A stretch of 34,610 nt of DNA. It comes from Acidobacteriota bacterium (GTDB lineage Bacteria > Acidobacteriota > Terriglobia > Acidiferrales > UBA7541). The position numbers and the translations under genes were made by a program. Under the pieces are notes generated by a model. That model was not told the origin of the DNA. It ran no database searches and was given only the letters and a program-made list of their open reading frames with translations. The stretch is from contig QHZB01000202.1 in the NCBI GenBank assembly GCA_003224525.1, positions 31,688 through 66,297 of the forward strand. The letters are read 5' to 3'. Positions 12,582 through 15,496 of the stretch are shown here, in pieces. How positions within the stretch are numbered: the first letter of the stretch is position 1; every line of letters starts with the position of its first letter.

Positions 12582-12610
12582 TTGACAATCCGCAGCACGC
12601 AGCTTATCAA
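12582..12610 (+). promoter_or_regulatory. Sigma-70 promoter for the metal-transport leader
   Basis: A perfect -35 TTGACA (12582-12587), a 17-base spacer, and TATCAA (12605-12610) as the -10, which matches the consensus at four of six positions. Transcription would start near 12617, almost exactly at the first base of a 9-bp hairpin. This is the best promoter in the window by consensus match. Confidence 0.65.
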
Positions 12611-12616
12611 TGCAAC

Positions 12617-12910
12617 TGTGACTGCCAAGCAGTCACATAACGGGGTGAATTTCCTCTCAATGAGTGCGGGCAGCGAACTCGAACCTGGCCCTAGTTGGCC
12701 GGGGCTCCGGTGCAACCTGAAAATGGTTTATCGGCTGGGTATCCGGATGATATCGCGCGAGGCGCAAGCCACAGCGCGAGCGGTCGGGTGGGGAGGGTTC
12801 CCTGGCGGCTAAAGGTAAGTCCATTTGTGTGAGGTACTTGCCCGCGGCCGAAGTTTTTCGGTGCGCGGGTTTTTTGTGGCCGGGATCAGAAGCGCGAGGA
12901 GGATGACGGT
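12617..12910 (+). promoter_or_regulatory. Candidate riboswitch/attenuator leader of the MgtE_N-CBS and Nramp-like genes
   Basis: About 290 bases of non-coding leader lie between the promoter and the ATG at 12911. Visible structure in order: a 9-bp hairpin with a 3-base loop at 12617-12637; a 7-bp hairpin with a 6-base loop at 12684-12703; and a 6-bp stem (12753-12758 with 12774-12779) enclosing GGC-GCAA-GCC, a GNRA-tetraloop hairpin at 12761-12770. An intrinsic terminator ends the leader at 12841-12875. TGCGGGCAG at 12665-12673 is complementary over 9 positions (two wobble pairs) to TTGCCCGCG at 12838-12846, which holds the terminator's whole 5' arm base, so the two pairings exclude each other. 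That is the layout of a transcriptional switch. The strong ribosome site GAGGAGG (12896-12902) lies 8 bases before the start. I do not recognise a named class, and the ligand is unknown; Mg2+ or a related ion is a guess from the genes downstream. Confidence 0.55.
12841..12875 (+). terminator. Intrinsic terminator inside the leader, upstream of the start codon
   Basis: CCCGCG (12841-12846) pairs with CGCGGG (12864-12869) and CCGAA (12848-12852) with TTCGG (12857-12861), with loop GTTT and one small internal mismatch. Six T follow at 12870-12875. It points towards the gene it precedes and lies 35 bases before its ATG, so it is more likely an attenuator than the end of the CYTH transcript. Confidence 0.75.
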
Positions 12911-14152
12911 ATGGATCTCTACGCGACAGAATTGATGGGCGCGAAGACTTACGACGTGGCTGGGAACTATGTCGGACGTGTGCGCGAATTCTTTATCGAG
13001 CCCGCGGAAGCTCCCAATCGTGTCTCTCATTACCTGCTGTCACGGGGCCATTTTCAACCGCTGGTGGCCAAACACGACCAGGTTGCGTCGGTGGCGGCTG
13101 GGAAGATGGAGTTAAGCGTCAGCGAGCGGGCGCTTGAGCTTTACCACCCGAACGAGTCGTGGCTGGCGGTTCAGAAGGATCTGCTGGATCAACAGATCAT
13201 CGATACCCGCGGCCGAAAGGTCGTGCGTGTAAATGACGTCGATCTGACACCGTTCCGCACGAATGGCAACGTGGAGCTGCGTCTGACACAAGTCGATGTG
13301 GGGCTGCCGGGAGCCGTGCGGCGGCTGCTCCAGGGCGTGGTGCCTCACGCGGTCGTGCGCAAGCTGCAGAGCAAATTGCCGCAGAGCGCGATTCGCTGGG
13401 AGTTTGTGAACCTCGTTGAACCGGACCCCATGCGCCGCGTGAAGCTGCGCATCACGCACGAAAAGCTGGAGGACCTGCACCCGGCGGACCTGGCGGAAAT
13501 CATGGAGGATCTGTCCGCGGCGGAGCGGCAGGGAATTATCGCGTCGCTGGACGAAGAGACCGCGGCCGCGGTTCTCGCAGAGTTGGACGAGCGGCTCACC
13601 ACACAAATCGTGGAAAAACTGGATCCGGAGAAGGCGGCAGACATTCTGGAAGAAATGGCCCCGGACGCGGCTGCCGACCTTCTGGCGGATTTGTCCAAGG
13701 AAATATCCGATGAGCTTTTGGATGAGATGCCCGGCCAGGAAGCCGACGAGGTCCGAGAATTGCTGGAGTTTGACCCCGCAACGGCCGGCGGCATGATGAA
13801 CCCTCAATTCGCATATGTGGGCGAGGATTCCACGCGGGAGGAAGTTCTGGAGTGGATGCGCGGGGAGGAGTTGAACTATGACCAGCTTGACACGATCGTG
13901 CTGCTGGACCGTTTGGCACAGTTTTCGGGCACCGTTCCCGTTGCGCGGCTTCTTCTGGCGGCGGGCGATCAGCGCATGGCAGAGCTGAAGATGGAACCAC
14001 TGCTCAGCCTGCCCTCCGATGCGGACGAAAAAGAAGTCTTCGAGCTTTTCGACAAGTACAACCTGCGGATGTTGACGGTGGTTGACAAAGAACACCAGCC
14101 GATTGGAGCCATCACGGTGGATGACGTGGTGTCGCGACTGGTGAAGCAATAG
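12911..14152 (+). CDS. Cytosolic PRC-barrel / MgtE_N / CBS-pair protein, probable metal-transport regulator
   Basis: A 413-residue soluble protein with no membrane segment. Residues 1-75 resemble a PRC barrel (GAKTYDVAGNYVGRVREF), and a second PRC-like segment follows near 85-150 (IIDTRGRKVVRVNDVDL). Residues 185-290 are the MgtE N-terminal superhelical domain: HPADLAEIMEDL, then repeated LDEETAAAVLAEL, LDPEKAADILEEM and MAPDAAADLLADL units, and ATAGGMM at 290-296. Residues 297-413 form a CBS pair ending in GAITVDDVVSRLVKQ. In full-length MgtE these two domains sense Mg2+ and gate the pore; here the protein stops where the membrane domain would begin. An Nramp-fold transporter gene follows after 21 bases, so it may regulate that transporter. 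The start is supported by GAGGAGG 8 bases upstream. Expression is probably controlled by the leader and terminator before it. Confidence 0.88.
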   Translation: MDLYATELMGAKTYDVAGNYVGRVREFFIEPAEAPNRVSHYLLSRGHFQPLVAKHDQVASVAAGKMELSVSERALELYHPNESWLAVQKDLLDQQIIDTRGRKVVRVNDVDLTPFRTNGNVELRLTQVDVGLPGAVRRLLQGVVPHAVVRKLQSKLPQSAIRWEFVNLVEPDPMRRVKLRITHEKLEDLHPADLAEIMEDLSAAERQGIIASLDEETAAAVLAELDERLTTQIVEKLDPEKAADILEEMAPDAAADLLADLSKEISDELLDEMPGQEADEVRELLEFDPATAGGMMNPQFAYVGEDSTREEVLEWMRGEELNYDQLDTIVLLDRLAQFSGTVPVARLLLAAGDQRMAELKMEPLLSLPSDADEKEVFELFDKYNLRMLTVVDKEHQPIGAITVDDVVSRLVKQ

Positions 14153-14173: not shown

Positions 14174-15496
14174 ATGAACTGGAATGTTATTTCCTCGAAG
14201 TTTGACCGCGTGAGGGCGGGCGACACGGATTTGCAGAAGAAGATCCGTGGACTGCGCCGGCGTCTGACGCTGCTGCTGGCGGTGGTGGGCCCGGGGCTGA
14301 TCACGTCCAATGTGGACAATGACGCGGGGGGAATTTCCGTCTATACGCAAGCCGGAGTGCAATACGGCTACGCGCTGCTCTGGTCGCTCATTCCGATGAC
14401 CATTGCTCTCTACGTCACCGAAGAGATGTGCGCGCGGATGGGCGTGGTCACCGGGAAAGGGCTTTCCGATCTCATTCGGGAGGAGTTCGGATTCCGTTCG
14501 ACGTTTTTTGTGATGATCACCGGTTTCTTTGTGGACCTGGCGAACGTGGTAGCGGAGTTTGCCGGTGTCGCGGCATCCATGCAGATTTTTGGAGTCAGCA
14601 AGTACGTCGCGGTGCCGATCGCAGCGATCGTCGTGTGGGTCCTGGTAATTCGAGGGACTTACCGCCAGGTGGAGGTTATTTTTCTATTCGCCTGCGTTTT
14701 GTATCTGTCCTACGTATTTTCCGCATTTTTGGCAAAACCGGATTGGCTGATCGCCGCGGAACATACGGTGGTTCCGAATCTTAGTCTCAATTCAGGCTAT
14801 CTACTTATGTTGACGGGACTCGTCGGAACCACGATTGCCCCGTGGCAGTTTTTTTACCTTCAAGCTGGCTTTGTTGAAAAGAAAGTGGGGCCGCGGCAAT
14901 ATCGGCAGGCGCGCGCTGACGTCCTCTTTGGCAGCATCAGCTGCATGGTGATCGTCTTCTTCATAATCGTTTGCACGGCAGCCACGCTCTACAAAAATGG
15001 CCACCGGGACATCAACGACGCCGCGCAGGCAGCGCAGGCGCTGATTCCGCTTGCCGGCAAAGGCGCAGGAATTCTATTCGCTTTTGGGCTGCTCAACGCG
15101 TCGCTCTTCGCCGCTTCCATTTTGCCGCTTTCCACCGCGCACGTGATTTGCGAGGGGCTTGGGTTTGAAGCGGGACTCGACCACAAATTCAAAGAAGCCC
15201 CCATTTTCTACTGGCTGTATACGATTTTGATCGTGGTTGGGGCGGGCGTCGTTCTGCTGCCCGGCGCGCCGCTTTGGAAGATTCTGATCTTTTCGCAGGT
15301 GGGCAACGGGATTTGGCTTCCGGTGGTGGTGATTTTCATTCTGCTGCTCGTCAACCGGCGCGACCTGATGGGCGACTACGTCAACACGGTGACTTTCAAC
15401 ATCGTGGCGTGGGTGACGGCAATCGCCATGATCGGGCTGACGTTAGTTCTCACTTACACCGCGCTCTTCCAGCAAAGCGTTCCACCGCCGCCCTGA
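14174..15496 (+). CDS. Nramp-family (SLC11-like) divalent metal transporter, NRMT-like magnesium type by motif
   Basis: A 440-residue membrane protein with about 11 hydrophobic segments and the LeuT-type Nramp fold. In helix 1 the usual DPGN metal motif is replaced by D50-A51-G52-G53 (within NVDNDAGGIS). In helix 6 the usual A-x-x-M-P-H reads GTTIAPWQ, so the metal-ligating Met becomes A222 and the His becomes W224. Loss of the soft Met ligand and a changed helix-1 motif are features I recall for the Nramp-related magnesium transporters (for example EleNRMT), as opposed to Mn/Fe carriers. Its partner gene encodes Mg2+-sensor-type domains, which fits. ATG 14174 is preferred; TTG at 14171 is an alternative, with AAGGG about 12-15 bases upstream of either. 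It forms an operon with the upstream gene. Confidence 0.85.
   Translation: MNWNVISSKFDRVRAGDTDLQKKIRGLRRRLTLLLAVVGPGLITSNVDNDAGGISVYTQAGVQYGYALLWSLIPMTIALYVTEEMCARMGVVTGKGLSDLIREEFGFRSTFFVMITGFFVDLANVVAEFAGVAASMQIFGVSKYVAVPIAAIVVWVLVIRGTYRQVEVIFLFACVLYLSYVFSAFLAKPDWLIAAEHTVVPNLSLNSGYLLMLTGLVGTTIAPWQFFYLQAGFVEKKVGPRQYRQARADVLFGSISCMVIVFFIIVCTAATLYKNGHRDINDAAQAAQALIPLAGKGAGILFAFGLLNASLFAASILPLSTAHVICEGLGFEAGLDHKFKEAPIFYWLYTILIVVGAGVVLLPGAPLWKILIFSQVGNGIWLPVVVIFILLLVNRRDLMGDYVNTVTFNIVAWVTAIAMIGLTLVLTYTALFQQSVPPPP

Follow-up and report, generated by a model that had tools for sequence, protein, structure and literature searches.

A candidate leader-peptide attenuator with an acidic-proline motif upstream of an acidobacterial NRMT-type transporter operon

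The transporter operon and its leader

The window, as we call the whole stretch of 34,610 nucleotides of acidobacterial DNA that was analysed, carries two adjacent transport genes preceded by a leader of their own (Table 1). The PRC domain of the first product falls just under the Pfam cut-off. The second product scores 338 bits against EleNRMT (7qia) vs. 126 bits against classical MntH. NRMTs are recognized by a change from Asn to Gly on helix 1 and from Ala/Met to Thr/Ala on helix 6 (PMC8806188), and both changes are found here when NDAGG and TTIAPW are aligned to EleNRMT, while the genome's other Nramp paralogue has the Mn-type signature DPGN and ATVMPH. CorA, MgtE, and MgtA gave no match in the window's genome, which is 98% complete, and the NRMT signature marks the second gene as the predicted, and sole recognized, Mg2+ importer encoded there. 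The first-pass annotation of this DNA had proposed a metal-transport operon, which by domains and binding site can now be specified as one of the Mg2+-transporter type, and Mg2+ is in our view a likely signal for the leader to sense. A caution comes from Acidobacterium capsulatum, in which a homologous transporter linked to an MgtE fragment gave full rescue of Mn2+ uptake, and its Mg2+ rescue needed added millimolar Mg2+ (PMC4072509).

Table 1. Features of the leader and of the operon behind it, in window coordinates
Feature	Coordinates	Strand	Details	Basis
Sigma-70-type promoter	12582..12610	+	TTGACA 12582-12587; -10 TTATCA/TATCAA about 12604-12610	Read directly
Weak, distant Shine-Dalgarno-like element of the leader ORF	12642..12647	+	GGGGTG	Read directly
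Leader ORF (uORF)	12660..12812	+	50 codons, MSAGSELEPGPSWPGLRCNLKMVYRLGIRMISREAQATARAVGWGGFPGG, then stop	Conserved, common stop site
Proposed ribosome-destabilising (Mg2+-sensing) motif	12675..12692	+	E-L-E-P-G-P, uORF codons 6-11	Comparison
Predicted antiterminator hairpin	12806..12850	+	CGGCT 12806-12810 with GGCCG 12846-12850; GGTAAGTCC 12814-12822 with GG(T)ACTTGCC 12833-12842	
Intrinsic terminator	12841..12875	+	Stem 12841-12869, GC-rich; T6 12870-12875	Read directly
First regulated gene	12911..14152	+	PRC-barrel-like, MgtE_N (Pfam E 1.9e-26), and CBS (3.4e-08) domains	
Second regulated gene	14174..15496	+	Nramp-related transporter, NRMT type; DAGG, TTIAPW binding site	

The leader RNA is about 290 nt long, its terminator is followed 36 bases further on by the gene start, and a ribosome site, GAGGAGG at 12896-12902, can be read directly eight bases 5′ of the ATG at 12911. 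TTGAC(A/T) and TTATCA align in most leaders of the same genus, nearly all of which have both TTGAC(A/T) and the terminator, and TTGACA is also seen in other genera. The promoter, leader, terminator, and ribosome site of the first-pass annotation are thus real elements, and promoter and terminator also recur in relatives; its attenuator likewise stands, since the terminator lies before its own gene and a competing helix exists.

The leader reading frame across genera

Although the leader had at first been read without any ORF, a frame of 50 codons occupies most of it. Searching with the leader DNA returned matches in 30 of the 95 genomes of the order, all from the same genus, and the same-genus leaders were cut 5′ of the orthologous gene and aligned. 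Nearly every one of them contains an ORF of 46-63 codons with an MSxSxELEPGP-like start and a homologous stop, GGC followed by TAA, TAG, or TGA. Codon-like conservation is confined to the two ends, and about 56% of the sites in the middle differ, at all three codon positions alike; this middle has diverged beyond alignment, yet the frame is always open. It is because of such divergence that a kept frame is informative. Leader-peptide attenuators have a short translatable ORF before the structural genes, and the present one is open in 39 of 39 representatives sharing under 60% identity and drawn from several genera (log10 P about -10.6 against dinucleotide shuffles), compared with 26/68 for the +1 frame and 41/68 for the +2 frame, counts that come from related sequences and are not independent. 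Three different stop codons serve at one site, with TAA used in 29, TAG in 31, and TGA in 9 of 69 uORFs. The stop has the same position in 31 same-genus leaders, with equivalents in nine further genera; in L030 the usual stop is lost (CAG) and the ORF ends two codons later.

Altogether, 69 genomes from 10 genera of one acidobacterial family have equivalent ORFs before the orthologous PRC/MgtE_N/CBS and Nramp operon. In the nine other genera of the family the DNA is unalignable, yet promoter, uORF, and terminator again stand 5′ of the orthologous gene, and across genera the uORF measures 33-68 codons, save one of 26 codons. Many relatives have GGAG at the position of GGGGTG, which suggests this element as the ribosome site of the uORF in spite of its long spacing (12-14 nt). 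By comparison, then, the leader region is predicted to hold a hidden, translated leader gene of about 50 codons, and the uORF peptides tested match neither Pfam nor NCBIfam. No recognizable uORF was found in L124 and L047, the leader is absent from the two genomes of genus g3 examined, where CorA is present, and leaders of families f2/f3 have a terminator or a promoter and no clear uORF.

The only uORF sequence feature common across genera is an N-terminal acidic-proline motif, early in the peptide like the destabilising motif of MgtL. Asp or Glu followed by Pro occurs within residues 2-16 of 60 of the 69 uORFs, compared with 7.3 expected when each peptide is shuffled, and within residues 17-31 of only 4/69; the stricter form, acid-x(0,1)-acid with an adjacent Pro, is seen in 38 of the 69, compared with 3.3 expected. 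Strict acid-x-acid-Pro is near universal only in genera g1, g10, g12, and g13, and g11, g2, and g8 have mostly a single E-P. Variants include ELEPGP in the window, DQEPLPRRR in g10, EQEPLP, ELEPFP, SNSEPGG, and SNQDPGS, and the uORFs that have no early D/E-P are L114, L118, L144, L162, L032 (in which KP replaces EP), L029, and three members of g6. The codons of both motif residues vary synonymously (GAA/GAG for the acid; CCT/CCC/CCG/CCA for proline), and hence selection acts on the peptide.

Four genomes of the same genus own an MgtA-type Mg2+ ATPase, namely G033, G034, G035 (leaders L030, L056, L048), and G010 (L047). Their leaders are among the most diverged, and include the one that has lost the usual stop, while L047 lacks a recognizable leader, which hints at relaxed selection where another Mg2+ importer exists. 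Among relatives, the regions 5′ of eight MgtA and two CorA genes gave no convincing acidic-proline uORF.

The switch at the stop codon and a proposed mechanism

At the end of the uORF an intrinsic terminator is found together with an antiterminator that cannot form at the same time, less clearly so in some genera: the uORF stop codon falls within the 5′ arm of the antiterminator, whose 3′ arm is overlapped by the 5′ arm of the terminator. In the same-genus alignment 92.8% of the antiterminator cells are in standard pairs vs. 23-56% for slid controls, with a few covarying pairs, and 88% of the terminator cells are paired. When the RNA is folded before the 3′ arm of the terminator has been made, most of 30 relatives form the antiterminator at about -15 to -28 kcal/mol (about -20.7 in the window), and when a ribosome footprint at the stop is masked, the terminator forms at about -15 to -26 kcal/mol (-21.4 in the window). 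The distance from the uORF stop to the beginning of the terminator arm is 15-36 nt in each of the 67 leaders scored, which puts the arm just outside the ribosome footprint, as the model requires. Other genera have different bases at the stop that do the same job, for example CCGACUAGG with CCGUGGUCGG, and the terminator arm is sequestered beyond shuffles, with a genus mean z below 0 in 8/9 genera and a combined Z of about -4.7 (the nine genus-mean z summed and divided by 3). This sequestration is clearest in g2, g5, g6, and g8, and g13 has no excess.

Taken alone, the antiterminator of the window is not better than shuffled sequence (z -0.47). Equilibrium folding of its full leader still lets the terminator win, and RNAalifold on the alignment alone likewise gives the terminator, which is more stable than the state that it excludes; the antiterminator would therefore have to act kinetically. 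A kinetic win of this kind is usual for attenuators. The evidence for the switch consists of hairpin folding and pairing counts, and a simple duplex test between the stop region and the terminator arm, which gave no gain over dinucleotide shuffles in most genera, was set aside. Also discarded was the long-range helix 12665-12673/12838-12846 that the first-pass annotation had put forward to break the terminator. Its required GCGGGC occurs in just 4 of 31 relatives and is lineage-specific, its 5′ strand falls within uORF codons 2-5, and the competing helix is instead formed by 12806-12822 with 12833-12850. Overall, we regard the architecture, a uORF combined with a terminator/antiterminator switch at its stop site, as very probably correct.

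Two observations concern the end of the uORF. A Shine-Dalgarno-like GGAGG lies near its 3′ end (12789-12797 in the window), and in many genera such an element is found 8-16 nt 5′ of the last codon; it is suggested that this might prolong ribosome dwell at the stop, and its excess of hybrid energy over shuffles is slight, with genus means of z from -1.1 to +1.7. Of the 69 uORFs from all genera, 47 end in Gly or Asp. Both residues are poor peptidyl donors, and at this position they might delay release of the peptide.

In E. coli at low Mg2+, translation of MgtL is aborted at EPDP, termination before mgtA is prevented, and mgtA is expressed (PMC11282234). Early acidic pairs with a nearby proline provoke pausing or drop-off (PMC11282234). 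Our favored reading of the acidobacterial leader, held with somewhat better than even confidence, is a translation-controlled transcription attenuator in which Mg2+ would be sensed through synthesis of the leader peptide; that sensing works by ribosome destabilisation we favor by a slight degree. The uORF, its fixed stop, the acidic-proline motif, the terminator, the competing helix, and the Mg2+-type operon come from comparison, and from them we infer that the ribosome aborts at the motif, that Mg2+ is the signal, and in which direction control runs. Transcription from the promoter would yield a leader RNA whose 50-codon uORF is translated by a ribosome. When Mg2+ is sufficient, this ribosome would get past ELEPGP and arrive at the stop codon at 12810, where it would hide the 5′ arm of the antiterminator (GGCUAAAGGUAAGUCC) and leave free the terminator arm 30 nt downstream, so that the terminator forms and the operon is off. 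At low Mg2+ the ribosome would be destabilised and drop off or stall at the acidic-proline motif, and the naked stop region could pair with the 5′ arm of the terminator before the 3′ arm is transcribed; with the antiterminator formed, RNA polymerase would read into the MgtE_N/CBS and NRMT genes and turn the operon on. These soil Acidobacteria, in other words, probably gauge Mg2+ by whether a ribosome completes the leader peptide.

The M-box riboswitch controls NrmT genes in Clostridia, and the NRMT operon of A. capsulatum has no Mg2+ riboswitch according to the same 2014 study (PMC4072509). In a sister family (f6), comparison of coordinates places an M-box 5′ of the orthologous gene, at 76-261 nt in 14 genomes and at about 1.8 kb in a further four; the M-box was located in 29 f6 genomes and in one f7 genome of the same class, and was absent (RF00380) from the window and from all genomes searched of the family with the leader peptide (f1). 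Thus the orthologous operon is under a Mg2+ riboswitch in f6, and in f1 the leader peptide takes that position.

In family f8 of the same class (L131, L132, L176, L177) the orthologous PRC/MgtE_N/CBS gene is preceded by a minimal start-stop ORF, in which 4-6 nt separate an SD-like GGGGGC from an AUG whose next codon is UAG in three genera and UGA in one. A conserved terminator (CCTCCCGTGGC..GCCACGGGATTTTTTT) lies further downstream, at a distance of about 80-200 nt. Of 7 genomes, 4 contain the promoter-SD-ATG pattern a single time each; it would be very unusual for this operon to have a leader ORF of one codon. With an M-box in f6, an acidic-proline leader peptide in f1, a start-stop ORF and terminator in f8, and a terminator with no clear ORF in some f2 members, the 5′ control of this operon seems to have been swapped several times across families.

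Alternative readings and known systems

Through pausing at the E-P-G-P codons, an attenuator of the same build might answer to another signal, such as charging of proline or glycine tRNA, EF-P/EttA activity, or the overall capacity for translation. We consider this unlikely, although EPGP, EPLP, and EPFP are X-P-X contexts, several genera retain a single E-P, and MgtL too depends on proline codons and EF-P (PMC11611912, PMC8092293). The operon is a Mg2+-type transporter set that the M-box controls in the sister family, the acidic residue before the proline is kept whereas the proline codons vary freely, and most leaders have just one to three prolines near the start. Less probable again is that the sensing step is arrest of the nascent chain near its C-terminus, or slow termination at the stop (after GWGGFTGG, REARPGLK, or PGI), with the early motif secondary. 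The C-terminal ends are indeed conserved within each genus, and the frequent final Gly or Asp would suit such an arrest, but the C-terminal sequences are wholly different between genera, which have only the N-terminal motif in common, and since the bases concerned also form the antiterminator arm, constraint at the RNA level accounts for their conservation.

The first-pass annotation had favored a riboswitch of no known class for Mg2+, Mn2+, or a second messenger. A terminator before the gene, an alternative helix, and the true Mg2+ riboswitch on the f6 operon would agree with this. A perfect hairpin can be read directly at 12617-12637. However, the supposed aptamer is a conserved open frame in 10 genera, and the 150 nt preceding the stop have no conserved RNA structure: RNAalifold on 31 same-genus leaders finds none 5′ of the uORF stop codon (0.0 kcal/mol), for which reason the upstream hairpins were rejected as an aptamer, and the stability of the whole leader is not unusual (z -1.47). 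The Rfam covariance models matched no family at gathering, and one chance match (E 9.6) appeared at E up to 10. With an ORF in place of conserved RNA structure, a ligand-binding riboswitch is most unlikely on the sequence evidence, and the case is an example of a translated leader being taken for an orphan riboswitch. It is just as improbable that the uORF encodes a functional small protein whose stoichiometry with the operon the terminator merely sets, for although the start and end of the peptide are conserved, neither sequence nor length is constrained in its middle half, and its two ends coincide with the ribosome-acting motif and the antiterminator.

MgtL and mgtQ are enterobacterial, and a non-homologous acidic-proline leader in Acidobacteriota therefore bears on the generality of Mg2+ sensing through ribosome destabilisation, a question that the deeply conserved leader and the M-box of the sister family make directly testable by reporter. 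Whether such sensing was invented independently in Acidobacteriota, replacing an M-box on an orthologous operon and coupled to an intrinsic terminator, we judge to be evenly balanced; if true, this would be a case of RNA and ribosome sensors for the same ion being swapped in nature. In any case the leader provides a proposed regulator for acidobacterial NRMT operons. No acidobacterial leader peptide on this operon was described in the literature searched, from which subscription papers were mostly missing, so that its absence is not proven.

Among known systems, the M-box (ykoK, RF00380) shares with the leader the orthologous MgtE_N/CBS gene that it controls, but is a ligand-binding aptamer RNA. 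In trp/his-type attenuators, as here, the position of a ribosome on a short ORF picks terminator or antiterminator; there an upstream stall on uncharged tRNA relieves termination, whereas here no single regulatory codon is repeated in a run and conservation lies in an acidic-proline peptide motif. In mgtQ of Salmonella mgtCBR, early Asp/Glu residues abort uORF translation and remodel the RNA 5′ of a Mg2+ transporter gene (PMC8092293), but mgtQ has 8 codons, lies between genes, and acts on translation initiation, not on transcription termination. The closest parallel in mode of action is MgtL, before mgtA of E. coli and Salmonella, likewise a short leader peptide with an early acidic-proline motif (EPDP there, ELEPGP here) before a Mg2+ importer, and in our model, as for MgtL, full translation would favor termination and abortion would favor read-through (PMC11282234). 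MgtL is, however, much shorter and acts on a Rho-dependent terminator, in place of which an intrinsic one follows about 50 codons here, and it belongs to another phylum and another transporter class, with no alignable sequence. Because of these differences in terminator type, peptide length, phylum, and transporter, and with no sequence homology apparent, the acidobacterial leader is by analogy a system that works like MgtL, and is not filed as MgtL.
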